Origin: Lachnospiraceae bacterium
GTDB taxonomy: Bacteria; Bacillota; Clostridia; Lachnospirales; Lachnospiraceae
Length of the DNA: 38,982 nt
Reading direction: 5' to 3'
NCBI GenBank assembly: GCA_011959925.1
Contig: BLMD01000400.1
Span: 1-38,982, forward strand
Part shown: positions 13,058 through 27,438 of the stretch, piece by piece
How the letters are laid out: the number at the start of each line of letters is the position of its first letter
Position numbering within the stretch: position 1 is the stretch's first letter
Program-made: the position numbers and the translations under genes
Notes under the pieces: generated by a model
What the model was told of the DNA's origin: nothing
Seen by the model: the letters and a program-made list of their open reading frames with translations, nothing else
Databases searched by the model: none

Positions 13058-13285
13058 ATGGTTTATTCAGAAGAAATAAAGAAGATTCGTCAGAAATGTT
13101 TTTTGTCACAGGAGTCCTTTGGCAGAGAACTTGGTGTTTCGTTTTCATCCATTAACCGCTGGGAAGGTGGAAAAAGTAAACCTAATATGTCTGCTATGAA
13201 AAAGATTAAGGATTTTTGTGATGCCCATAATCTTGATTTTGATACCTTAGAAGAACAGTGGACACAGATGGGAAAGGATGAATAG
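13058..13285 (+). CDS. Small XRE-family HTH regulator (candidate controller of the restriction locus)
   Basis: 75 residues, essentially one helix-turn-helix of the Cro/CI type: IKKIRQKCFLSQESFGREL, VSFSSINRWEGGKSKPN and MSAMKKIKDFCDAHNL. AAAGGAG precedes the ATG. Its end lies within 5 bases of the hsdM start (or overlaps an alternative start), so it leads the operon. Small XRE proteins preceding methylase genes in restriction-modification operons act as controller proteins that delay nuclease expression. That is mostly known from type II systems, so the role here is inferred. A palindrome at its promoter fits autoregulation. Confidence 0.85.
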   Translation: MVYSEEIKKIRQKCFLSQESFGRELGVSFSSINRWEGGKSKPNMSAMKKIKDFCDAHNLDFDTLEEQWTQMGKDE

Positions 13286-13289
13286 TAGC

Positions 13290-14897
13290 ATGGCGAAAAA
13301 GATAACTGCTGAAAAAGCACTGAATATAGATAATATTTTATTTAATTGTAGAGATATTTTGCGTGCGGCACGTAACGCGGGTTCTTTCTTTGAGAAGCGC
13401 GACATGATGCTTACGCTTGTATTTTTACGTTTTATTGGTGAGAAATACGAAGACGGAATTGAAAGGCTTCGTCAGACTTTAATTAAACAAGGGCTTGATC
13501 CGGAAGATGAAAATATTAGAGCAGCATTCTTTGATGATGCAACTTTTACAGATGGAACATACAATTTGCCTCTTGAAGCAAGGTGGTCAACTATCATCAA
13601 TACTCCTGCACCGGGGCTAAATGTTGCACTTGATACAGCGCTTCACAGTATTGCAACTGCTTCAAAGGATTTAAAAGGCTGTTTTATCGAAGGGACGTTT
13701 ACTACTCGTAATCTTGGCGCAAATGATATTAAGAAACTTGTTGATGAAGTAAATAAAATCAGCCATAAGGCATTTGGTGAAGAAAAAGACCTTATCGGTC
13801 GAGTTTACGAATATTTCCTTAAAGAATTCGCGGTAAATGCTACAAAGGAAGAGGGAGAATTTTATACGCCTCATGATGTTGTGCAATTGATTGCGGCAAT
13901 GATAGAACCTTATGACGGCACTTTATATGATCCTTGCTGTGGTTCGGGTGGCATGTTTATTCAGAGCGCTGCTCTTGTAAAATCAAAACAAGGCGATATC
14001 AACAAAATCAATATTTATGGACAGGAAAAGGACGCGGCTACTTATCGTCTTGCAAAAATGAATCTTGCACTTCGCGGAATCAGCCATAACCTTGGTGAAA
14101 CAAATGATTCGTCCTTTACACACGATTTACATAAAGGATTATACTTTAACTATATTATGGCAAATCCACCTTTCAATCTGAAAGGCTGGTATGATGAAAA
14201 TTTAAAGAGTGATGTACGTTGGTCAGACTATGTAACACCGCCTGAAAGCAATGCGAACTATGCATGGATTTTGCATATGCTTTCCCACTTGAAGAAAACG
14301 GATGGAGTTGCGGGATTCCTTCTTGCTAATGGTGCATTGAATGATAGTGATACTTTAGAAATTCGTAAGAGGTTGATTCAGAATGATAAGGTTGAAGCAA
14401 TTATTGTTCTTCCAAGAGAACTGTTTATCACGACAGATATCAGTGTTACATTATGGGTTTTGAACCAGAATAAAAAGGGTGGTAACTATCACGGAAGAAC
14501 ATTGCGTAATCGTGAGAATGAAATGCTCTTTATGGATTTGCGTACATGGACAGAAAATCCGGTTAAGGGAGAAAACAAAAAGAAGGTACGTTTGACAACG
14601 GAACAGATTGAAAAAGCAGCAGATATTTACCATACATGGCAGAGCGAAGGAACTGACGGAACAAAATACGAGGCGCCCGAACTCTATAGAAGTGTAGGCA
14701 TTTCGGAAATCGAAGAAAAGAACTGGGCACTTACTCCAAGTAAGTATATTGAGTTTATTGATCACGATTTAGAAATTGACTATGAAAAGGAAATGGCTCG
14801 TATTCAGGCAGAAATGAAAAAAATCATGAAGGCTGAAAAGAAATCCCAGCAGATGCTGGAAGATGCATTTAGGGGGATTGGTTATGGGATTGACTAA
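13290..14897 (+). CDS. hsdM: Type I restriction-modification DNA methyltransferase subunit HsdM
   Basis: 535 residues from ATG 13290 (AAAGG lies 12 bases upstream; ATG 13278 is in frame but abuts that site). The N-terminal HsdM_N helical domain covers about 10-135. The N6-adenine methylase core follows with KEEGEFYTPHDVV, the SAM-binding motif DPCCGSGGM (214-222) and the catalytic NPPF (292-295). The C-terminal helices contact HsdS. HsdM methylates adenine within the bipartite site chosen by HsdS, marking self DNA. The gene overlaps hsdS by 14 bases. Its sequence is clearly AT-richer than genes before 12.5 kb. Confidence 0.96.
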   Translation: MAKKITAEKALNIDNILFNCRDILRAARNAGSFFEKRDMMLTLVFLRFIGEKYEDGIERLRQTLIKQGLDPEDENIRAAFFDDATFTDGTYNLPLEARWSTIINTPAPGLNVALDTALHSIATASKDLKGCFIEGTFTTRNLGANDIKKLVDEVNKISHKAFGEEKDLIGRVYEYFLKEFAVNATKEEGEFYTPHDVVQLIAAMIEPYDGTLYDPCCGSGGMFIQSAALVKSKQGDINKINIYGQEKDAATYRLAKMNLALRGISHNLGETNDSSFTHDLHKGLYFNYIMANPPFNLKGWYDENLKSDVRWSDYVTPPESNANYAWILHMLSHLKKTDGVAGFLLANGALNDSDTLEIRKRLIQNDKVEAIIVLPRELFITTDISVTLWVLNQNKKGGNYHGRTLRNRENEMLFMDLRTWTENPVKGENKKKVRLTTEQIEKAADIYHTWQSEGTDGTKYEAPELYRSVGISEIEEKNWALTPSKYIEFIDHDLEIDYEKEMARIQAEMKKIMKAEKKSQQMLEDAFRGIGYGID

Positions 14898-16020
14898 AAT
14901 TCGTTTAGGTGATTATATTGAACGCTCAACAGTAAATAATAGTGATTTAAAGTATGGAATTGATTTCATTGCAGGAGTAAACAATCAGGGAATTTTTACT
15001 GTACCAAAGGGAAATACAGAAGGTGTGAACTTAAAGCCTTATAAAATAGTAAATAACGGTGCATTTGTATATAATCCTACACGACTTGACTTAGGGTCTA
15101 TTGCATATCGTATGAAGGATTTGTGTATTGTTTCGCATTTGTATATGGTGTTTTATCTTACTGAAGAAGGAAAGAAAATCATTGACCCTTTATGGTTATT
15201 TATCTATTTTAGACGATCAGAATTTTGTAGAGAAGTAACATTTAGAAATTTTGGAAGTCAAAGACCCGAATTTAACTTTAATGATATGAGTGATATTATT
15301 ATACATCTGCCAGATATAGATATTCAGCGTAAATTTGTTGTGGTTTACAATGCTATGCTTGAGAATCAACAAAGTTATGAGCGTGGATTGAACGATTTGA
15401 AGCTTGTATGTGATGCCTACATTGAAGATTTAAGACGTGGAATTCTTTGTGAGAAGATTGGACCATTTATAACAAGGCAAGATATAAGAAATGGGGTAAA
15501 TGGTACAAAAAATGTTATGGGTGTAAGCACATCAAAAGAGTTTCGTGAACCTACATCAAAAGTTAATAGGAACGAATTGCAAAATTATAAAGTGGTAAAA
15601 CCACGTCAAATAAGTTTTGTGCAAACCACACATAATGAAAAAGTTTTTTGCAATGCATTTAATAATACGAACGATGATATTGTTGTTACATCAGTCAATG
15701 AAGTTTTTTCTACTGACGAAGAATATCTGTTGCCAGAATATCTAGTGATGTTTTTCAACAGAACTGAATTTGACAGATATGCAAGATTCCATTCGTGGGG
15801 CTCTGCAAGAGAAACATTTTCTTGGGACGACTTGATAAAGGTAGAAATACCTATTGCAAGCATGGAAATCCAAAGATCTATTGTTGATATTTACACAGTT
15901 TACAAAGAAAGAAAAAATATCAATGAAAAACTTAAAGTACAGATAAAAGATATCTGCCCTATTTTAATAAAAGGCTCTATCGAAGAAGCACGAAAACGAG
16001 GAGGCATAATCAATGGCTAA
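14884..16020 (+). CDS. hsdS: Type I restriction-modification specificity subunit HsdS
   Basis: 378 residues from the ATG at 14884, with GGGGGATT upstream and overlap with hsdM. Two target-recognition domains are separated by helical conserved regions: TRD1 about 1-148, helix 149-185 (FVVVYNAMLENQQSYERGL), TRD2 about 186-345, helix 346-378. The two halves share an internal repeat: FRNFGSQRPEFNFNDM in the first and FHSWGSARETFSWDDL in the second, each followed by a hydrophobic P(x)n(I/M)(D/E)IQR element. Each TRD reads one half of the split target. No second, inverted hsdS fragment lies in the window, so switching by inversion is not evident. The end overlaps hsdR by 8 bases. Confidence 0.95.
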   Translation: MGLTKIRLGDYIERSTVNNSDLKYGIDFIAGVNNQGIFTVPKGNTEGVNLKPYKIVNNGAFVYNPTRLDLGSIAYRMKDLCIVSHLYMVFYLTEEGKKIIDPLWLFIYFRRSEFCREVTFRNFGSQRPEFNFNDMSDIIIHLPDIDIQRKFVVVYNAMLENQQSYERGLNDLKLVCDAYIEDLRRGILCEKIGPFITRQDIRNGVNGTKNVMGVSTSKEFREPTSKVNRNELQNYKVVKPRQISFVQTTHNEKVFCNAFNNTNDDIVVTSVNEVFSTDEEYLLPEYLVMFFNRTEFDRYARFHSWGSARETFSWDDLIKVEIPIASMEIQRSIVDIYTVYKERKNINEKLKVQIKDICPILIKGSIEEARKRGGIING

Positions 16021-19000
16021 GTTAAAAGAATATAATGGTTACTATTGTGAATCAGAATATGAATATGCCTTTATTGGATTTTTGGAGGCTGAAGGCTGGA
16101 TTTATTCTTCTGGTAACAATATTTCTCGTGTAACCAAAAGGAATGTGCTGATTGCTGATGATTTCAAAAAGTTTATAGCCGATACAAATCCAGACTTAAT
16201 GGAAGATGAAGTTACTCAGATTTTTGATAATGTCCGCCTTGTTGGCAGTGAAAGTGATTTTGCGACTTTGCATAAAGTATATAGTTGGATGGTTGATGGC
16301 GTTCAGCTTACGCCGCAATATGGACTGGTAAAAATGATACCACTTATTGATTTTGAAAATTGGAACAAGAACATATTCCGTGTGGTAAATCAGTTCACAG
16401 TAGAATATACAAATAATGGTCAAAAACAAAATCGAAGACCGGACGTGCTTTTGTTTGTAAATGGTATACCGTTATGCGTAATTGAATTGAAAAATCCTGC
16501 TGATGCGAATGCAACCATTTATGATGCTTGGGAGCAAATTAATATTCGTTATTGGAGAGATATTCCACACCTTTTGCATTACTGTCCCCTGGCTTGCATT
16601 TCAGACGGTGTGAAAACAAGACTTGGGACAGTTCGTACTCCTTATGAGCATTTTTATGCATGGAGACGTGTGAATGATGGAGATAAAGTATCTACTCTGC
16701 CTTTTGCAGAAACAGAAACTATGATAAAGGGCGTATATGCTCCTGAGCGATTTTTAGAAATTTTTAGAGATTACATTTATTTTCAGGATAGCATTTATGA
16801 TAGTTCGGAAGAGGAAATTGTATGTCGTTATCCACAATTCTTTGCGGCTAGATTACTAAAACAAAGTATAGTAAATTCTGTTGCCACCAAAAGCGGTAAA
16901 GGTGGAACATACTTTGGTGCAACCGGATGCGGGAAAACATACACAATGGCTTTTCTTGCCCGACAGCTAGCACTCCGTTGTACCGATATACCGGAAATCG
17001 GTTCGCCGACAATTATTCTAATTGTTGACCGTGATGAATTGCAAAAGCAGGGGGCGAAGCTTTTTACAAAGAGCAAAGAATTTTTGAACCTCGGTGAAGT
17101 AGCTGTTGTTAAAAATAGAGCACAGTTAAGACAGGAGCTTGGTGCAAGACAAAGTGGGGGTTTTTATATTTGCACCATTCAGAAATTCTGTGACAGGGAA
17201 GATGACAAAATCGGGATTATCAATGATAGACAGAATATTATATGTTTTTCCGATGAGGCTCATAGAACACAACTTGAACATTCTAAGAAAATTCAGTTCA
17301 GTAAAGATGCTGATGAAAATATGAAAGCGATGGTTTCAAAGCCATATGCAAAAGTATTGAAAGAAGCATTTCCACAGGCTACGTTTGTTGGATTTACCGG
17401 TACGCCTATTGCAGAAACATATCAAACATTTGGAGATGAAATTGACCGATATACAATGGATCAGGCAGTTGCAGACGGTTTGACGGTTTCGATCAAGTAT
17501 CACCCTCGTATTGCTAAGGTATTGCTTGATAATAACAAGGTGAAAGAAATTGAAAATTATTATAAAAAATGTGCTGATGATGGTGCAACCTATGAGGATA
17601 TCGAAGCAAGTAAGAAAGCAATGAGCTCTATGGAAGTGATTCTTGGTGAGCCTTCCAGACTTGAGCGTCTGGCAACAGATATTCATGACCATTATGTTTC
17701 AGCATGCGCAGGTGATCCAGATAGAATACAAAAAGCAATGGTGGTATGTTCTAATAGAAAAATTGCTTATGCATTACTACAGAAGTTTAAGAATAAATAC
17801 CCTGAATGGCTTGAAGAGAAGAAAACACAGGATGGTGTTTCTGTAACGGAAGAAGAATTAAAAGAATTGAAACCAATGCCATTTATTGCAATGGTATCGA
17901 GTGTCGGCAGCAACGATGAAAAAGGCATGTATAATTATTTAGGAGGGGTTAAGAATGATAAGCGTTCGGAAGAACTGGATATTGCTTTTAAACAGGAAAA
18001 ATCGAACCTCCATATAGTTATTGTTGTAGATATGTGGATTACGGGTTTTGATGTTCCGTGTCTTACATATTTGTATAACGACAAACCTCTGAAAAAGCAT
18101 ATGTTGATACAGACCATTAGTCGTGTAAACAGAAAATATCCGGGCAAAGAATTTGGTATGGTTATTGATTATATTGGAATTCGCGATAATATGCGTGAAG
18201 CAATGAAGATTTATGGTGGTGATACTTCCGTTGCGCCTACGTCTGATGATGTTGAGCAGGCTACATCTGTGTTTAGAGAAGAGTTAGAAATCTTAAAAAC
18301 TCTGTTTACGGATTATGATTTAGCCCCTTTCTTAAATCTGGATTGTGACCCCGTCGCACGTTATAGACTTCTTGCAAAAGCTGCAGAATATGTATTTGTT
18401 TCAACACAGGAATTGAAAACAGAAGGAAATAAAGGTTCTCAAAAGGTTTCATTTAAAACTTACTTTCTAAAAACTGTAAAAAGAATGAGAGCTGCTTTTG
18501 ATATTTGTCAGCCTTCCGGCTATCTTGGTGAAGAAGAATCTGCACTTGCACAATGCTTTATGGCTATAGCTGGTTTTGTTCGTAAAATGAGTGGAACGAG
18601 TGAAGTGGATACAGATACCATGAATCGCGCAGTTTCAAAGATGGTTGAGGAAGCGTTGAAATATAATCAGGTGGAAAGTGTTCTCGAAAGCGGTGAGGAA
18701 GAAGATATCTTTTCACCGGAATATTTTGAAAAATTATCTGATGTTAAAATGCCTGCAACGAAGCTGGAACTTCTTGTGAAAATGCTTCGCAAGCAGATTA
18801 AGGAATATGGAAAAGTGAACCAGTTGGCTGCAAAGTCATTTCAGGAAATGTTAGAAAAGACGATTGCAGAGTATCATGAAAGACGCAAACATCTTACTGC
18901 TGAAGAAGCCGGGGAAGCACAGGAACAGGCATCTGAAGATATTATTAGAATTGCTACAGAACAGGCTTTAGCTATTCTTCGTCAGATGAACGAGAACAGA

Positions 19001-19447
19001 GAAAGTTTTCGTAAGATTGGTTTAACATTTGAAGAAAAAGCATTCTATGATATTTTGATTTCTCTGCGTGACCAATATAACTTTGAATATGGAACAGATC
19101 AAGAAGTTGATGGTGTTGTAATCAATGATAAGTGCAAAAGCTTAGCCAAAAAAGTAAAGGAAATCATTGATACAAAATCTTCGTTTGCAGACTGGCTTAA
19201 TAATCAGAATATAAGAAATCAATTAAAGCTGGATATTAAAATATGCTTGGTTAAGAATGGATACCCACCTCAGTATAGCCCGGAAGTATTCAATAAGGTT
19301 ATGGAGCAGGTAGAAAACTTTGAGGAGTATTCAGGAGCAGAAGATTTAAAAAATGAGTCATCTGCTTCGGCAAAGATTTATCAATATGAGACAGAGAGCA
19401 ATATGATGATGGTTGCTGAAGCCCCAATACCTTATGGCAAATCATAA
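16013..19447 (+). CDS. hsdR: Type I restriction endonuclease subunit HsdR
   Basis: 1144 residues, the usual size. The N-terminal PD-(D/E)xK nuclease has RRPDVLLF (Asp144) and CVIELKNP (Glu158, Lys160). The SF2 translocase follows: Walker A GATGCGKT (302-309), DEAH box FSDEAH (414-417), FTGTP, WITGFDVPCL and QTISRVNR. The C-terminal ~300 residues are helical and dock on HsdM. HsdR pumps unmethylated DNA through the complex and cuts at a distance. All catalytic residues are present, so the system looks intact. A DUF3800-like gene begins 29 bases downstream on the same strand. Confidence 0.96.
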   Translation: MAKLKEYNGYYCESEYEYAFIGFLEAEGWIYSSGNNISRVTKRNVLIADDFKKFIADTNPDLMEDEVTQIFDNVRLVGSESDFATLHKVYSWMVDGVQLTPQYGLVKMIPLIDFENWNKNIFRVVNQFTVEYTNNGQKQNRRPDVLLFVNGIPLCVIELKNPADANATIYDAWEQINIRYWRDIPHLLHYCPLACISDGVKTRLGTVRTPYEHFYAWRRVNDGDKVSTLPFAETETMIKGVYAPERFLEIFRDYIYFQDSIYDSSEEEIVCRYPQFFAARLLKQSIVNSVATKSGKGGTYFGATGCGKTYTMAFLARQLALRCTDIPEIGSPTIILIVDRDELQKQGAKLFTKSKEFLNLGEVAVVKNRAQLRQELGARQSGGFYICTIQKFCDREDDKIGIINDRQNIICFSDEAHRTQLEHSKKIQFSKDADENMKAMVSKPYAKVLKEAFPQATFVGFTGTPIAETYQTFGDEIDRYTMDQAVADGLTVSIKYHPRIAKVLLDNNKVKEIENYYKKCADDGATYEDIEASKKAMSSMEVILGEPSRLERLATDIHDHYVSACAGDPDRIQKAMVVCSNRKIAYALLQKFKNKYPEWLEEKKTQDGVSVTEEELKELKPMPFIAMVSSVGSNDEKGMYNYLGGVKNDKRSEELDIAFKQEKSNLHIVIVVDMWITGFDVPCLTYLYNDKPLKKHMLIQTISRVNRKYPGKEFGMVIDYIGIRDNMREAMKIYGGDTSVAPTSDDVEQATSVFREELEILKTLFTDYDLAPFLNLDCDPVARYRLLAKAAEYVFVSTQELKTEGNKGSQKVSFKTYFLKTVKRMRAAFDICQPSGYLGEEESALAQCFMAIAGFVRKMSGTSEVDTDTMNRAVSKMVEEALKYNQVESVLESGEEEDIFSPEYFEKLSDVKMPATKLELLVKMLRKQIKEYGKVNQLAAKSFQEMLEKTIAEYHERRKHLTAEEAGEAQEQASEDIIRIATEQALAILRQMNENRESFRKIGLTFEEKAFYDILISLRDQYNFEYGTDQEVDGVVINDKCKSLAKKVKEIIDTKSSFADWLNNQNIRNQLKLDIKICLVKNGYPPQYSPEVFNKVMEQVENFEEYSGAEDLKNESSASAKIYQYETESNMMMVAEAPIPYGKS

Positions 19448-19476
19448 GATAATTAATCAGTAGAGAGGCGATGAAT

Positions 19477-20973
19477 ATGAAGTATGTTTTTTTCTATGAT
19501 GAAACAGAGCATAGCAGAAAGATTAATTATAAGACTGTTACCGCCAATAATTACTGTGATAATTTCATGACTGGAATTGTGGGTTGGAAAGCAGAAGAAA
19601 ATGATTGTGTTTCTGACAGATACCTTGCTTTTGAATCGAAGTATGCATACAGAAAAAAAGACGGAGAATTAAAGAGCCAGACTATGAAAACAAAAGATTT
19701 TAGTCTTGGGTTTGCTTCTCTTAATAATCATACTATTGAATTTTATGAAGACCTTGTATCACTGTTTGATGAGAAAATAATTATATATTTCTCTGTGTTC
19801 AGCAAAATAGAATATGTTATTAGCCAATTGTTTGTAAATTATCATAATTCTATGTTTGTTGATGTTGATTACATGAAATATTCAATTATTAAGGCTATAA
19901 ATGTATATCAACCACAAAATGTGATAGAAACAATTTATAAAGAACCACAAATATTTGTTAATGAACTACGGTCTTTTTTAGAAGATAGGATTATTAAAAA
20001 TCAGGCTAATAGTATTTTGAAAGAACATGAGAATAAAGCATTTGAAGAAATACTTGTATTACTTGACGACACAGAGACATCGGAGACATTAGATTGGGCA
20101 TATTTTGCGTCGTTTGCTGGATTTAAGAAACTGTTGATAGAGATGAATATTGTTAATTATAGGCTGATGCTTGATCGAGAAGGAGAAGAAGCGCATACAT
20201 TGAATGCTGCAATAAATGAAGGACTTCAAAATGTTACCGAGGAAGACTCCAGGGAATATGTGGGACTTAGAATGGCAGACATGCTTGTAGGATTAATATC
20301 TCGATTGATGCAGTCATTGAAGATATCATTAAATGGAGATTATAAAGACGGGAAAATAAAGAAGACTCTTTTGGATTCTGGTTGGTTTGCATTGAATCAA
20401 AAGCAACTTGGTTTGTACAAAAAATTGTATCAAGTAATTTGTAGGAATAATGATTATTGGTACAAATCTTATGCTGGTATTTATTCAGATGATTTGGTGG
20501 CTTTTGTAGCACTTCTTCAATTTATGAATCATTTTTCTGATGCGGAAGAAATTTGCAGCAGTAAGCTTGAAATGCAACCAGAGTATTATAATGCCTTTGT
20601 CTGCGAAAGACTGAGCGAGCGTTATAAAATTATGAGAAACAAATTACCGATTGATCCTATTGCAAATGATGACAAAGATTGTTTTTATAATCAAAGAGGC
20701 GCAAAGGTTTATAAGGATATTAATAGGCAGTCCATGTTGCCATTACATAGTGGACAGAATGAATTTTATGTGCTTTCGGTGGGATTTTCAAGGAATGGAA
20801 TCCCATTGGTGACAATTTCGGAGAATGAACAGCCGAAGTGTTATAGACTACCGGATGAGTACGGCGATTGGACTATGACTGTTGTAGGATTTGCCAATAT
20901 GGGTGAAAGATTGTTTCCAGCGAAAGTGTTATTTTCACTAATTGATGGAAGATATTTGGTTGATATTTTATAA
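19477..20973 (+). CDS. DUF3800-like protein (predicted RNase H-fold) between hsdR and the Argonaute gene
   Basis: 498 residues from ATG 19477 (GAGAGG eight bases upstream; ATG 19471 is too close). The N-terminus MKYVFFYDETEHSRKI resembles the first strand of DUF3800, where an 'iDEsG/D-E' pair forms part of a predicted metal site (Asp8, Glu9). Around 258-280, REYVGLRMADMLVGLISRL matches the late 'lQlADlla' helix with Asp268. The ~220-residue C-terminal part is not in ordinary DUF3800 proteins. It holds a helical stretch with aromatic repeats (YKSYAGIYSDDLV), then a beta-rich end (FYVLSVGFSRNGIPLVTI). DUF3800 genes often occur in defence islands; the nuclease activity is predicted, not demonstrated. 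The operon position suggests a helper or second effector. Confidence 0.65.
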   Translation: MKYVFFYDETEHSRKINYKTVTANNYCDNFMTGIVGWKAEENDCVSDRYLAFESKYAYRKKDGELKSQTMKTKDFSLGFASLNNHTIEFYEDLVSLFDEKIIIYFSVFSKIEYVISQLFVNYHNSMFVDVDYMKYSIIKAINVYQPQNVIETIYKEPQIFVNELRSFLEDRIIKNQANSILKEHENKAFEEILVLLDDTETSETLDWAYFASFAGFKKLLIEMNIVNYRLMLDREGEEAHTLNAAINEGLQNVTEEDSREYVGLRMADMLVGLISRLMQSLKISLNGDYKDGKIKKTLLDSGWFALNQKQLGLYKKLYQVICRNNDYWYKSYAGIYSDDLVAFVALLQFMNHFSDAEEICSSKLEMQPEYYNAFVCERLSERYKIMRNKLPIDPIANDDKDCFYNQRGAKVYKDINRQSMLPLHSGQNEFYVLSVGFSRNGIPLVTISENEQPKCYRLPDEYGDWTMTVVGFANMGERLFPAKVLFSLIDGRYLVDIL

Positions 20974-21084
20974 CTCATAGGAATGACTGTCCTAGATTAA
21001 GATTGATAGAAAGCATGGTAATAGGTTAGGTACATATCCATATCAAAGAGTTTTTATTATTTGAAGCAAGAACGGGAGGAAAGT

Positions 21085-24000
21085 ATGAAAACAATAGATA
21101 CTAATACATTTGTAAATAGTTTTAAAGTTAAGCCGGATAAAAGCATGTCTTTCCTCTTGGGAGCAGGAGCATCCATATCATCGAACATTCCATCTGGTGG
21201 GCAAATGGTATGGGATTTTAAGAGAACATTGTATTGTACAGCAAATAATATACGGACAAGTTTGTATGGTGATTTGTCTAAGGAGAATGTACAGAAGGAG
21301 ATTCAATCATATTTTGATGGACAAGGGGGATATCCGGAATTATGGTCAACAGAAGAATATTCATTTTATTTTGAAAAGTGCTATCCATCAAGAAAAGATC
21401 GAGAGTATTATATTCAAAATAAAGTACGAGATATAAAACCATCATTGGGATACTTATGTATGGGTGAAATGATAATCAATGGGAAAGTAGATTTAGTTTC
21501 AACTACTAATTTTGATGATTTGGTGCAAGCTGGTGTTCATTCAATTGATTCAAGTATTTCAATTAAAACAATATCATCTGCCGTTAGCAATAGTGTTGGA
21601 TTTTCGTTGAATGAAGGATTTCCTAATATAATAAAATTACATGGAGATTATTTATTCGATAAATTAAAAAACACAGAGTTAGAATTGCAAAAATTAGAGG
21701 ATGAAATAGCTGATATTTGGAAAACATCTATAAAAGAAAATGGATTAATAGTTATAGGATATGCTGGCAATGATAGTTCTGTTATGTCTGTTCTGGAAGA
21801 ATTAATCAGTGAAGATGGTATAAAGAAAGGTGTATATTGGTGCAAACCAAAGGGCAGTCATCTTAGTATAAGGGCATGCAAGTTTATGGAGACCGCTTGC
21901 AATGTTAATGAACAGTCGGCAGTAGTTGAAATTGAGGCTTTTGATGATCTTATGTATAGTTTGTACTTGGCTATGAATTTGGAAAATTCCAGCATTGATG
22001 AGCTATGGAAAGGTCATGATAAAAAACAGGATATTTTATATGATGCGATAGGAAAGCATACAGCAACAGTAATAACGAATGCATTGCCAGCAATGCAGTT
22101 TCCAAGCAAATGTTATGTATTTAGTTCGAGCATTACTACTTGGAAAGAATTGCGGGCAACAACAAATAATTGTTGTGTTGCAATTTTATATAAAGGAAAA
22201 GTATGGACATTGGGGAGCAAAAGCGGTATTTTAGAGGCTTTTGCTGATAAAAATATTAGTAATATTGAGGAAATGGATATTCCAATATATATGATGAAAC
22301 TGGAACATTCAGATGTCATAGGCATGTTTTATGAGATTATAGAAAATAATTTATTAAGCATGGGTTTATCTTCATTTGGAAAAAATAAGTACTTTGACAA
22401 AAGTAGCCGGCGTTTAAAAAACGGTTGTTTTGTTTATGATGCAATTAAAATAGCTCTATCGTTTGTTGATAGTAATGTAGTTATGAATTTATTGCCTACA
22501 GTTCATGTATTAAAAAATGATGAATCCCAATTAGAACGATTTGCGTATCAGAATATTGTAAACAGTGAAATGTCAATACTCTATAACAAACAGATGAATG
22601 ATAAGATAGAAATATGGATTCAGAAATTATCAAAGAAAGGGAAAATAATTTTTGAATTAGGAAATGCTGTGTTGGAGTTTAATACACAACGAATACAATT
22701 TTCTGGAACAGGCAGTATCAATAAATGTTATCAAGCGAAGGAAACGGAACTTGCTTTTGATTATGAAAATGGTAGTTGTATCGCAGTTAATCAATTAAAA
22801 GGGTTAGTTAATTATGGACCCTTAGAATCATATGCAAATCGAAGTGTTCGGTTAGCAGTGCTGTCACCTAGAGAATGTGCAGCAGATATATGGAGGCACT
22901 TAAATGAACTGAATAAGCATCATGCAACAACTTTAAAGCAGGATAAAGCATTTTTACCAGAATATATAGGATTTCAAGATGTTTTTAGATGTGGGTTGAA
23001 TATTCCAAATGGAGATGATACCAAAAGATTTAGGGGTTATCCTTTAGGCGGGGCTTTAAAGGCAAGTACGGAAGATTTCTTTAACGGGATTTGTCAATAT
23101 ATTGATGTGATGGAAAGGGAAAAACATGAATTTGATGTTTTGGTAATTTATATTCCAAACCAGTTAAGTAAAATGAGAGAACTGAAAAATGAAAATGTTT
23201 ATTTTGATTTGCATGATTCACTAAAAATATATTGCGCTGGTAAAGGTATTGTTACACAGATAATAGAAGAAAAATCGGTTCATACCAATAGTGATATGGC
23301 AAAAATTATGTGGGGACTTTCCACCGCTATATATGCAAAGGCTATTGGAAAATTATGGAAACCAAAGCTGACAAGATATAATACGGCGTATATTGGTTTA
23401 AGTTATGTACAATCAATAAAGAATAATGAAAAAATATCAATTGGTTGTAGTCAGTTATTTGATTCAGAAGGAAATGGCATGGAATTGTACTTGCGTCCGC
23501 TAAAAGATCCACAGATTATACAGAAAAATCCTTATATGAGAAGTGGAGATGCTTGTCGCCTTATGAATAATTTGAAAAGAATTTATGACGAATCGGTTCC
23601 TTTGCATAAATTAAATCGAATTGTAATACATAAGACAACACACTTTACAAAGGAAGAAATGGAGGGAATAACAAATGGGCTTGCAGGTGTGGATAATATT
23701 GAATTGTTGCAAATTCAAGAATTTTCTGCATGGAGAACTATAAGATTTCAGAATGATACTGCAACACCATTTCCCGTTCAAAGGGGAACTGTTATTCCAC
23801 TTGACAAGGACACATTTTTAATTTGGACGCATGGAAGTGTTCAGCATGATGAATTGGCAGGAAAAAACTTGAACTATTATAAAAATGGTAGAGGAATACC
23901 AGCTCCATTATTGATAAAACGATTTATGGGGAAATCATCGGCGCAGGAATTGGTCAATGAAATTTTAATGCTTACTAAAATGAATTGGAATAGTGGGGAC

Positions 24001-24114
24001 GGATTATACAAAATATTGCCTGTAACGCTGGATTTTGCAAAGGCATTATCCCGTGTTGCTAAGCAAGACTTAGTGGTCTATGATAGACCGTATGATTTTA
24101 GATATTTTATGTAA
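21085..24114 (+). CDS. Single-chain SIR2-(APAZ)-MID-PIWI short prokaryotic Argonaute (SPARSA-like)
   Basis: 1009 residues from ATG 21085 behind GGGAGG. The N-terminal SIR2 domain has FLLGAGASIS (26-30 core), STTNFDD with Asn142, IKLHGDY with His186 and VIGYAGND (225-230), so the NAD-hydrolysing site looks intact. About 290-600 is a linker region in the APAZ position. A MID-like region follows with FDVLVIYIPNQL and a 5'-phosphate pocket motif SLKIYCAGKGIVTQ (~712-725). The PIWI-like end has YIGLSYVQ, RIVIHKTTHF, LIWTHGSV, NWNSGDGLYKILPVTLDFAKAL and a C-terminus YDFRYFM, as expected for Argonautes. Catalytic Asp positions read Ser773 and Thr851, so slicing is probably lost. Family knowledge: guide-RNA recognition of invading DNA triggers SIR2 NAD+ depletion. 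Most relatives split SIR2-APAZ and Argonaute in two genes. Confidence 0.85.
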   Translation: MKTIDTNTFVNSFKVKPDKSMSFLLGAGASISSNIPSGGQMVWDFKRTLYCTANNIRTSLYGDLSKENVQKEIQSYFDGQGGYPELWSTEEYSFYFEKCYPSRKDREYYIQNKVRDIKPSLGYLCMGEMIINGKVDLVSTTNFDDLVQAGVHSIDSSISIKTISSAVSNSVGFSLNEGFPNIIKLHGDYLFDKLKNTELELQKLEDEIADIWKTSIKENGLIVIGYAGNDSSVMSVLEELISEDGIKKGVYWCKPKGSHLSIRACKFMETACNVNEQSAVVEIEAFDDLMYSLYLAMNLENSSIDELWKGHDKKQDILYDAIGKHTATVITNALPAMQFPSKCYVFSSSITTWKELRATTNNCCVAILYKGKVWTLGSKSGILEAFADKNISNIEEMDIPIYMMKLEHSDVIGMFYEIIENNLLSMGLSSFGKNKYFDKSSRRLKNGCFVYDAIKIALSFVDSNVVMNLLPTVHVLKNDESQLERFAYQNIVNSEMSILYNKQMNDKIEIWIQKLSKKGKIIFELGNAVLEFNTQRIQFSGTGSINKCYQAKETELAFDYENGSCIAVNQLKGLVNYGPLESYANRSVRLAVLSPRECAADIWRHLNELNKHHATTLKQDKAFLPEYIGFQDVFRCGLNIPNGDDTKRFRGYPLGGALKASTEDFFNGICQYIDVMEREKHEFDVLVIYIPNQLSKMRELKNENVYFDLHDSLKIYCAGKGIVTQIIEEKSVHTNSDMAKIMWGLSTAIYAKAIGKLWKPKLTRYNTAYIGLSYVQSIKNNEKISIGCSQLFDSEGNGMELYLRPLKDPQIIQKNPYMRSGDACRLMNNLKRIYDESVPLHKLNRIVIHKTTHFTKEEMEGITNGLAGVDNIELLQIQEFSAWRTIRFQNDTATPFPVQRGTVIPLDKDTFLIWTHGSVQHDELAGKNLNYYKNGRGIPAPLLIKRFMGKSSAQELVNEILMLTKMNWNSGDGLYKILPVTLDFAKALSRVAKQDLVVYDRPYDFRYFM

Positions 24115-24314: not shown

Positions 24315-25835
24315 ATGATACCATTAAAGATAGAGACTTTGCTGGAGGGGCGTGTCGTTGAACATGACCGTGTAGAGTATAAAACAGGCTGGAACCCTAA
24401 TGATATTATTCATTCTATTTGTGCGTTTGCAAATGACTATGATAACACGAATGGAGGATATATCGTCATAGGGGTAAAAGAGAGCAATGGTATGCCGGTA
24501 TTTCCGTTAGAAGGTGTTCCGAAGGAAAAGTTAGATTCCATCCAGCAGGAAATATTTCAGTACTGTAATCAGATTATTCCAAGGTACATTCCAAGAATGG
24601 AAGTGGTTGATTATAAGAATGAAGGAATTTATTTGATATATCTATGGTGTTCAGCAGGTGACAGCGGTCCTTATCAGGCACCGAAATCAGTGTATGTGGA
24701 AAATGGTGAAAAAGCTGACAAAAGCTTGAAATATTGGATTAGACCGGCATCGCTTACAACAGATGCGAAACAGGACGAAATATCTGAACTATTTGATAAA
24801 TTTAATTCTGTGCCGTTTGATGACCGTGTTAATAGAAAGGCAAAAATTGATGATATCATGAGAGGCTATCTTGAAGATTTTATCAGGAAGAGCAATAGTA
24901 GTCTGGTGATGGAGCTGAATAGCAGTTCATTAGAGGAACTGCTGCTTGCACAGGAAGTTGCAAATGAGACAGATACGGAATTAGATATCAGAAATATTGG
25001 TGTATTGATGTTTGCGGAACATCCGGAAAAGCTGATTCCGGGGGCATATATTGAGCTGATTCGATTTTATTCAGAAGAAGCCGAGGCATCGGATGATTTT
25101 ACTGAAAAAATATTTACAGGACCAATATGGAGACAAGTTCAGGATGCTTTGAATTATATAAAGACAACTGTGATTGAGCAAAAAGTTGTGAAGGTTCAAG
25201 GTCAGGCAGAAGCAGAACGATATTTTAACTATCCATATAATGCATTGGAAGAAACATTGGTAAATGCAGTATTTCACAAGTCGTATCGCGAGCCGGAGCC
25301 AGTGGAAATCCGTATATATGTGGATAGCATTCAGATACTTAATTATCCCGGACTTGCGAAATGGATTAATCTTGAACGTTTTGTATCAGGTAAAGTGAAA
25401 GGAAGGAAATATCGTAACAGAAGAATTGGGGAATTATTTAAGGAGATTGATTTATCTGAAAAAAAGGGAACGGGTATTCCCAAAATATTAAGAGAACTGA
25501 AACAAAATGGTTCACCAGAGCCTGAGTTTGATATGGATGAGGAAAGAACTTATTTGAATGCGATTATTCGCATAAGGGACGGTTTTGAAAGAAAAGAGAA
25601 AATGTCCGAATCAATGTCTGAATCAATGTCCGAATCAATGTCTGAATTGGAAAGAGCAAGAATGCAGATTATTTTGATTTATTTGGAAACCAATAAAGAA
25701 ATAAATAGTTCTGTTGCAGCAAAATTGCTGGAGGTTGAAATAAAGACGGCAAGCCGTTTGCTGTTGAAAGCGGAAAAGCTGGATATCCTTAAAGGTACTG
25801 GTAAAACAAAAAATAAGGTATATTTTAGAGAATAA
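24315..25835 (+). CDS. AlbA_2 (Schlafen-like) domain ATP-binding regulator with C-terminal winged helix
   Basis: 506 residues, start behind AGAGAGG. The N-terminal AlbA_2 domain covers about 10-135: VEYKTGWNPNDIIHSICAFAND then NGGYIVIGV is the diagnostic 'E.K......i.k.i.AfaN..GG.i.iGv'. A GHKL-type ATPase region (about 310-410) has ALEETLVNAVFHKSY, IQILNYPG and KKGTGIPKI. A winged-helix/HTH tail (440-506) follows a serine-rich linker with repeated SESM. This is the COG2865-type architecture: predicted DNA-binding regulators, sometimes defence-linked. The linker is encoded by a 12-base tandem repeat at 25602-25649. It ends the island's plus-strand gene run. Confidence 0.85.
   Translation: MIPLKIETLLEGRVVEHDRVEYKTGWNPNDIIHSICAFANDYDNTNGGYIVIGVKESNGMPVFPLEGVPKEKLDSIQQEIFQYCNQIIPRYIPRMEVVDYKNEGIYLIYLWCSAGDSGPYQAPKSVYVENGEKADKSLKYWIRPASLTTDAKQDEISELFDKFNSVPFDDRVNRKAKIDDIMRGYLEDFIRKSNSSLVMELNSSSLEELLLAQEVANETDTELDIRNIGVLMFAEHPEKLIPGAYIELIRFYSEEAEASDDFTEKIFTGPIWRQVQDALNYIKTTVIEQKVVKVQGQAEAERYFNYPYNALEETLVNAVFHKSYREPEPVEIRIYVDSIQILNYPGLAKWINLERFVSGKVKGRKYRNRRIGELFKEIDLSEKKGTGIPKILRELKQNGSPEPEFDMDEERTYLNAIIRIRDGFERKEKMSESMSESMSESMSELERARMQIILIYLETNKEINSSVAAKLLEVEIKTASRLLLKAEKLDILKGTGKTKNKVYFRE
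25602..25649 (+). repeat. Four 12-bp tandem repeats coding for MSES in the AlbA_2 protein linker
   Basis: ATGTCCGAATCA and ATGTCTGAATCA alternate in four units, the last ending in TTG. The unit is a multiple of three, so length changes would alter linker length without a frameshift. Confidence 0.9.
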
Positions 25836-26514: not shown

Positions 26515-27438
26515 TTATCGAACCAGAAAATCTTTCCGCGGATGTTTCGTTGTGAGAATGTCCCGCTGCTTTGACATGGCGACATGCGTATAAATTTCCG
26601 TGATATGAATAGAACTGTGTCCGAGCATTTCCTGGATATAGCGGATATCCACATCGGCTTCCAAAAGGCTGGTAGCGAACGTATGGCGGAACATATGCGG
26701 CGTGATATGCAGCTCTATGGCGGCTAGAGAAGTATATTTGTTAATCATCCGCCGGACGGATTGATCGGAGAGGGCGCCGCCGGACGAATTGACAAAAAAA
26801 TTCCGGCAGTTTTGAATCTCTGTCAAAAATGCATGTTTATATTCGTTTAAAATACGCAGGACGTCATCGTTTCCGATTTGAATCCGCCGTTCCTTTGCGC
26901 CTTTTCCGTAAATTAAAATATTTTTATCCTGCAGGTTGATGTCATTGTTTTTCAGGGAACACAGTTCGGAAATCCGCATTCCCGTAGCAAATAAAAGCTC
27001 GATGACTGCAGCGTCGCGGATCGTAATTTTTTTCTGGTATTCGCTCTTGGCGGCAGAGTTCTGCTGATAGATGGCAGAAAGGAGGCGCTCTACGGTATGG
27101 AGCGGAATTGTTTTAGGCAGGATCACCGGTTCCCGAAATTTAATCTGTAATTTATTAAAAGGATTCTGGTCGAGGAGTTCTCTATATTCAAAATAATGAA
27201 AAAGTGCTTTTAAAGAGGCGATTTTGCGTTTGACTGTTTTCGGTTTATATTTCTGATGGAGCGTCCCGATAAACTGTTCCAGTTCCTTGGGCGTAATTTC
27301 TGAAATATCCGTAACGGTTATTTTTTTCAAAAACTGCGTTAAGTCAATGCGGTACGCTTTGAGAGTTTTTTCATCCAGCCGTTTTTGCCGGCGGCAGTAA
27401 TCCAGGTAACTTTGGGTGAGTACGTTTAAATTGCTCAT
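26515..27438 (-). CDS. Tyrosine recombinase/integrase (XerC/D-like)
   Basis: 307 residues with an AAGGAG ribosome site. The N-terminal SAM-like core-binding domain (about 5-90) is followed by the catalytic domain with the complete active site: Arg155 (ATGMRISEL), Lys in YGKGAKERR, His248-x-x-Arg251 (ITPHMFRHTFA), His274 (MLGHSSI) and Tyr283 (EIYTHVAM). It resembles XerC/XerD in size and architecture. Position at the right edge of the AT-rich defence island suggests island integration or excision, but its base composition follows the chromosome, so it could be resident. Such recombinases also shuffle hsdS genes, though no invertible hsdS partner is visible. Confidence 0.92.
   Translation of the reverse strand: MSNLNVLTQSYLDYCRRQKRLDEKTLKAYRIDLTQFLKKITVTDISEITPKELEQFIGTLHQKYKPKTVKRKIASLKALFHYFEYRELLDQNPFNKLQIKFREPVILPKTIPLHTVERLLSAIYQQNSAAKSEYQKKITIRDAAVIELLFATGMRISELCSLKNNDINLQDKNILIYGKGAKERRIQIGNDDVLRILNEYKHAFLTEIQNCRNFFVNSSGGALSDQSVRRMINKYTSLAAIELHITPHMFRHTFATSLLEADVDIRYIQEMLGHSSIHITEIYTHVAMSKQRDILTTKHPRKDFLVR

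Follow-up and report, generated by a model that had tools for sequence, protein, structure and literature searches.

An intact single-chain SIR2-APAZ-MID-PIWI short Argonaute of the fused clade S1A in a Lachnospiraceae bacterium

The window analysed here is a 38,982-nucleotide stretch of DNA from a gut-dwelling Lachnospiraceae bacterium (GCA_011959925.1, contig BLMD01000400.1), in which one forward-strand gene encodes a SIR2 domain, an APAZ domain and a MID-PIWI end in a single chain. The protein is an intact short prokaryotic Argonaute (pAgo) of the fused clade S1A, sister to the two-gene SPARSA systems; the kind of system is already known. The gene was picked out in an original prediction made from the sequence alone, which read it as a SIR2-Argonaute with an intact SIR2 site and an apparently slicer-dead PIWI domain. 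The gene and its domains, whose residue limits are approximate, are as follows.

21085..24114, + strand: single-chain SIR2-APAZ-MID-PIWI protein of 1009 residues (short pAgo, fused clade S1A; PADLOC, tree and model)
21085..22014, + strand: SIR2 NAD+ hydrolase (NADase) domain, residues 1-310 (Pfam SIR2_2, PDB 8in8_B and residue map)
22015..22752, + strand: APAZ domain by predicted fold, N-L1-L2-like, residues 311-556 (AlphaFold2 model of the segment and Foldseek)
22753..23373, + strand: MID domain, residues 557-763, with a 5'-phosphate pocket at His710, Lys714 and Gln725 (alignment with the Geobacter Argonaute GsAgo)
23374..24111, + strand: PIWI domain, residues 764-1009, apparently slicer-dead (GsAgo, PDB 8in8_C)

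The frame opens with an ATG at 21085 and closes with a stop codon ending at 24114, with zero internal stops; a TTG at 21061 is an alternative start, and the ATG is preferred because a ribosome-site-like GGGAGGA lies immediately 5' of it. Scanning 84,980 species genomes by pattern, a search that reaches close relatives, returned 40 distinct loci; 22 of these hold a near-full-length fused frame, 21 being open throughout and one (L024) carrying a single internal stop. Whole-gene dN/dS (the ratio of nonsynonymous to synonymous substitution rates) is 0.096 against L009, 0.099 against L010 and 0.071 against L011, so the gene is under purifying selection (0.07-0.10). A chance frame or pseudogene is ruled out by these values together with the 22 near-full-length fused relatives, and the 1009-residue frame of the original prediction is therefore real. 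The motif positions given with it (Asn142, His186, GAGAS, GYAGND, SLK...TQ, Ser773 and Thr851) are all correct: the SIR2 part has GAGAS starting at residue 26, STTNFDD at 139 (Asn142), LHGD at 185 (His186) and GYAGND at 225, and the C-terminal part has FDLHDSLK at 707, TQII at 724, YIGLSY at 769 (Ser773) and IHKTTHF at 848 (Thr851).

The whole chain is matched by the PADLOC model PDLC02420 ('Aga_SIR2-PNTD1-PNTD2', for fused SIR2/Argonaute proteins), with residues 1-1009 falling on model positions 1-1010 at 1220 bits. The same model matches 21/21 aligned sequences, an alignment of the window protein with its full-length relatives, 20 of 22 being used and L009 (a near copy) and L024 (internal stop) omitted; truncated loci (among them L013, L016, L026-L028, L033, L035 and L037-L039, and also L041-L044, L046 and L047) are absent from the alignment, tree and residue counts, and L067, the N-terminus of which is cut by the locus end, is used in the tree and residue counts. 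By sequence, the protein matches the Geobacter SIR2-APAZ protein (8in8_B) at residues 7-401 (E 6.4e-42) and GsAgo (8in8_C) at residues 569-1009 (E 9.9e-58); a profile of the 21 sequences lengthens these matches to positions 3-438 and 555-1016, respectively. For the whole chain, AlphaFold2 gave a model with a mean predicted local distance difference test score (pLDDT) of 81.2 and a predicted template modelling score (pTM) of 0.67; it matches GsAgo (8jkz_B) with E 2.6e-36 and a template modelling (TM) score on target of 0.87, matches the SPARSA SIR2-APAZ protein (8jl0_A) with E 4.9e-31, and aligns with the long Argonaute RsAgo across 789 columns. The predicted MID-PIWI fold is thus borne out at the C-terminal end by sequence, profile and structure matches from residue 569 (555 with the profile). 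A Pfam scan of the protein gave SIR2_2 as the sole match above cut-off and found neither PAZ nor TIR; NCBIfam at E 0.01 gave no family for the protein or its two neighbours.

The SIR2_2 match covers residues 137-258 (E 3.5e-10). The Asn-His catalytic pair is present, with N142 and H186 aligned to N142 and H186 of the Geobacter protein GsSir2, and F143, D144, Y226, D230 and F287 (F286 in the window protein) are also kept. N142, F143, D144, H186, Y226 and D230 occur in 26/26 fused rows, which comprise the window protein, 22 relatives, L049, L050 and L067, near copies included. In Geobacter, NADase activity is abolished by a single substitution at N142, H186, F143, D144, Y226 or F287 and survives single substitutions at R30, S38, R190, S227 and E262 (PMC10781750); all six abolishing positions are kept in the window protein, and R30, S38, R190, S227 and E262 are not. 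The intact SIR2 site that had been proposed therefore holds, since Geobacter SPARSA has the same catalytic and NAD-pocket residues at the aligned positions.

The original prediction described the middle of the chain (about residues 290-600) as divergent in appearance. Residues 311-556 searched alone by sequence against solved structures gave one match, KmAgo, at E 0.065. Modelled alone with AlphaFold2, the same segment reaches a pLDDT of 85.9 and a pTM of 0.81, and the best Foldseek match of this model is the SPARSA SIR2-APAZ protein 8jl0_A (E 7.1e-11, TM score on query 0.67, root-mean-square deviation (rmsd) 6.8), followed by the SPARTA TIR-APAZ protein and then by AfAgo-N, the N-L1-L2 protein of AfAgo (8.4e-08). 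PDLC02420 covers the segment in 21/21 members, and a junction alignment places the cut point of the split relatives at about residues 517-552 of the window protein. On its predicted fold the segment is an APAZ domain with a diverged sequence; the reading of it as a novel domain standing in for APAZ is rejected, as the fold matches APAZ and the PADLOC fused model covers the segment. The divergence noted earlier is thus upheld, and the suggested 'variant APAZ' is unneeded because the predicted fold matches known APAZ domains.

The boundary between MID and PIWI was set from GsAgo 218/219. The PIWI residues Ser773 and Thr851 correspond to S228 and T308 of GsAgo, which is inactive; Ser is found in 23/26 and Thr in 24/26 fused rows. 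These are presumably the two catalytic Asp positions, judging from the YIG-D / RDG motif pattern, with the Glu and last positions unmapped; the domain appears to lack DEDX residues at both Asp positions and is apparently slicer-dead, as had been proposed. The MID-like pocket of the original prediction is likewise recovered: H710, K714 and Q725 align with the GsAgo 5'-phosphate pocket residues H166, K170 and Q181, and are present in 26/26, 25/26 and 26/26 fused rows, respectively. The closest relative (L010, from Parablautia intestinalis, 98% identical) has Ile at the position of K714; its Geobacter counterpart K170 matters for NADase activity (PMC10781750), and the L010 copy may therefore be impaired.

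In a MID-PIWI tree of 33 rows, a branch with support 98/92 separates 25 fused proteins from all other rows; the outgroup is small, long branches are flagged (including L067 and L071-L074) and letter composition is odd in L070 and L072. Outside this branch, three split SIR2-APAZ/Ago plasmid operons (L070-L072) adjoin the fused proteins, and five S2-labelled rows lie further off, separate from fused and split SIR2 rows alike; of these five, L073 and L074 stand beside DUF4365 genes and L045, L048 and L068 are labelled by similarity alone. The tree contains neither Geobacter nor any SPARTA protein, and omits L069 (no match to the fused profile) and L050 (zero-length branch to L034). Each of the split comparators L070-L072 has two frames, versus one uninterrupted 1009-residue frame in the window; a split SPARSA of clade S1B is ruled out by the single frame together with the tree. 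PMC12205087 and PMC11156904 assign the SIR2-APAZ-pAgo fusion clade to S1A and the operon clade to S1B, so the earlier label of 'clade S1B' for fused Argonautes is wrong. The remark that fused members are known but little studied is fair, yet they have been catalogued since at least 2018, when Ryazansky et al. reported a branch holding 106 short pAgos with APAZ, SIR2 being present in 102 of them (PMC6299218). A search of the openly accessible literature, which leaves out most subscription papers, turned up no biochemistry paper devoted mainly to a fused S1A protein.

With the fused S1A proteins (PDLC02420) the window protein shares the one-chain domain order, the full-length profile match, the single clade and the PIWI Ser/Thr residues, and no feature distinguishing it from them was found. 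With split SPARSA S1B, represented by Geobacter sulfurreducens GsSir2/Ago (PDB 8in8, 8jkz, 8jl0, 8y7z and 8y80; PMC10781750, PMC10474274), it shares the SIR2 active site, the APAZ fold, the MID 5'-phosphate pocket and the dead PIWI domain; it differs in being encoded by one gene rather than two. SPARTA (TIR-APAZ/Ago, S2A) and SPARDA/SPARHA have the same APAZ and MID-PIWI chassis, and differ in carrying a TIR, DREN or HNH effector where the window protein carries SIR2. RsAgo, which we take to belong to the long-B pAgo clade, has a comparable N-L1-L2-MID-PIWI-like arrangement; long pAgos differ in having a PAZ domain, and the window chain bears its own NADase effector.

The protein is very probably, by analogy with Geobacter SPARSA, a single-chain abortive-infection system that would be triggered by guide RNA and target DNA. 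The APAZ-MID-PIWI channel would load a small 5'-phosphorylated guide RNA, and the guide would base-pair with single-stranded plasmid or phage DNA, which would be left uncut. Pairing would open the attached SIR2 pocket and lead to hydrolysis of NAD+, and the infected cell would die or stop growing before the invader could spread.

Several observations count against this proposal. The superposition of the whole model on the SIR2-APAZ protein 8jl0_A is poor (rmsd 10.9, TM score on target 0.51). In the SIR2 domain, Y89 is kept (as Y92) but R190 is replaced by Leu, and the Geobacter Y89A/R190A substitutions together abolish activity (PMC10781750). In the MID domain, the Geobacter readers of guide bases 1-2, N184, R190 and N195, are replaced by E728, N735 and K740 (the R190 site lies beside a gap), and the target contacts Y84 and Y359 by L624 and F896; the N184A single mutant and the R190A/N195A and Y84/Y359 double mutants abolish Geobacter activity (PMC10781750). 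Accounts of oligomers in SPARSA activation also differ: PMC10474274 reports none for Geobacter, and the title of PDB 8y80 describes a tetramer of SPARSA in complex with gRNA and ssDNA.

Since the altered contacts align with Geobacter residues needed for activity, guide and target handling may differ in the window protein. Taken further, the same chassis, its SIR2 NADase unchanged as effector, could answer to another trigger, such as DNA in the role of guide, RNA in that of target, or a phage protein. The replaced base-reading and target-end contacts favour such a trigger, as does the conservation of the replacements in the fused rows (E728 in 25/26, K740 in 24/26). However, the 5'-phosphate pocket and the predicted N-L1-L2-MID-PIWI channel fold are retained, one paper reports that Geobacter mutations at F158 or H166 (guide end) or in the 2'dA pocket (target end) have little effect, and the N184 position is also variable in the three split relatives (E, R and N); a different trigger is therefore considered unlikely. 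The three split relatives have S, N and S at the 740 position, and Lys740 is a better marker of the fused clade than Glu728 because one of the three also has Glu at the latter position. The guide- and target-end contacts are the one place where the fused clade, judged from aligned residues, may work differently.

The genes on either side of the SIR2-Argonaute gene bear on whether it works alone.

13278..14897, + strand: HsdM, type I restriction-modification (Pfam N6_Mtase, 4.1e-90)
14863..16020, + strand: HsdS, type I restriction-modification (Pfam Methylase_S, 4.5e-12)
16013..19447, + strand: HsdR, type I restriction-modification (PADLOC REase_I, 2e-239)
19471..20973, + strand: DUF3800 protein of 500 residues, between HsdR and the SIR2-Argonaute (Pfam DUF3800, 1.5e-06)
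24315..25835, + strand: Schlafen AlbA_2 / HATPase_c_4 protein of 506 residues, downstream (SLFN_AlbA_2, 4.3e-14; HATPase_c_4, 1.6e-15)
26515..27438, - strand: tyrosine integrase on the 3' side of the island (Pfam Phage_integrase, 7.4e-42)

The same-strand run of hsdM, hsdS, hsdR, DUF3800, SIR2-Argonaute and AlbA_2/HATPase genes, followed by the integrase on the other strand, could be read as a partner-dependent system that relies on the DUF3800 and AlbA_2/HATPase proteins, or that senses DNA fragments supplied by the type I restriction system. In keeping with this, orthogroups that the literature reports from pAgo operons include AlbA_2 and HsdS, and a type I restriction-like gene lies upstream in 7/16 full-length loci with at least 3 kb of upstream sequence, window counted (the window, L011, L025, L031, L034, L036 and L040; an HsdR-like match only in L025 and two short HsdM-like frames only in L036). 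Scoring was by resemblance to seed genes of the window, L031 and L040, with no background rate compared, and the count does not represent independent events because L031, L034 and L040 are close kin. Moreover, DUF3800 is found beside close relatives only (L009, L010, L016 and the window), as is AlbA (L009, L010, L013, L042 and the window, with a weak match in L044); both are absent from the stretch fetched for L011, where an 87% identical Argonaute gene directly follows hsdR, and other loci have different defence genes as neighbours, for instance one matching HamA in L017. An obligate partner role for DUF3800 or AlbA is thus rejected, and dependence on partners in any of these forms is very improbable. 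The gene's surroundings resemble a defence island more than they do a fixed operon; the flanks carry ordinary genes, for a DEAD-box helicase, an HD phosphohydrolase, an ABC transporter and a response regulator, and for a sigma factor and type II secretion.

Full-length relatives occur in Lachnospiraceae, Oscillospiraceae, other Clostridia, Gastranaerophilales and Bacteroidales, and a Treponema genome has a partial copy at a contig edge. A full-length match is present in 3/391 genomes sampled from the window's class (window counted). Among the 61 nearest genomes sampled, its own included, only the window's genome has an intact copy; G008, of the same genus, has a C-terminal remnant and two others match the N-terminal part only. 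C-terminal pieces alone are seen in L042, L044 and L047 (residues 864-1009 at 98%, 943-1009 at 96% and 918-1009 at 80% identity, respectively) and in L046, the G008 remnant (the same place as L004/L008), which has two pieces (734-788 and 936-1009) and a stop; the N-terminal part was not found elsewhere in these four genomes at E 0.001. The L042 remnant comes after a truncated AlbA paralogue, an arrangement that a single deletion of the DNA between them could have produced. From these remnants the gene seems to have been lost by internal deletion.

Large serine recombinases, or similar frames, adjoin the 5' end of the copies in L086 (1306-3862), L014 (8433-9854), L039 (2293-3660) and L043 (1-738, opposite strand), the copies being full-length in L086 and L014 and 5'-truncated in L039 and L043; the fused gene may be carried as cargo of serine recombinase elements or disrupted by them. 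Short frames of 336-464 residues in three genomes of the same class (L051, L052 and L053) score highly against the fused model over its N-terminal part alone, two reaching about model position 322 and one 414; they are either truncated genes or forms with SIR2 only. A human-gut 'bacteriophage' clone of 7.3 kb, itself unverified (MT837260.1; L075, 5461-7137), matches residues 4-554, the SIR2-APAZ part, at 29% identity, and the window's own genome holds frames of 688 and 1385 residues (L002 on contig C322 and L003 on C371) with 25-29% identity to the SIR2 part.

As a system, a SIR2-Argonaute fusion is not new; the fused S1A branch is little characterised, and because close relatives occur in named strains, Eubacterium ramulus strain 21 and Parablautia intestinalis D8-82, it could be studied in existing strains. 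The comparison with Geobacter also offers a residue-level prediction, a changed reader of the guide 5' end in the fused clade. Geobacter guides prefer AU at the 5' end; it is tentatively suggested, as a possibility that is rather doubtful at present, that the fused clade, while retaining the SIR2 effector and the phosphate pocket, is more than a one-piece SPARSA: it would read this end differently through Lys740 and Glu728, take its guides from another pool of RNAs whose first bases do not follow the AU preference, and act as a one-chain sensor without the need for subunit matching.

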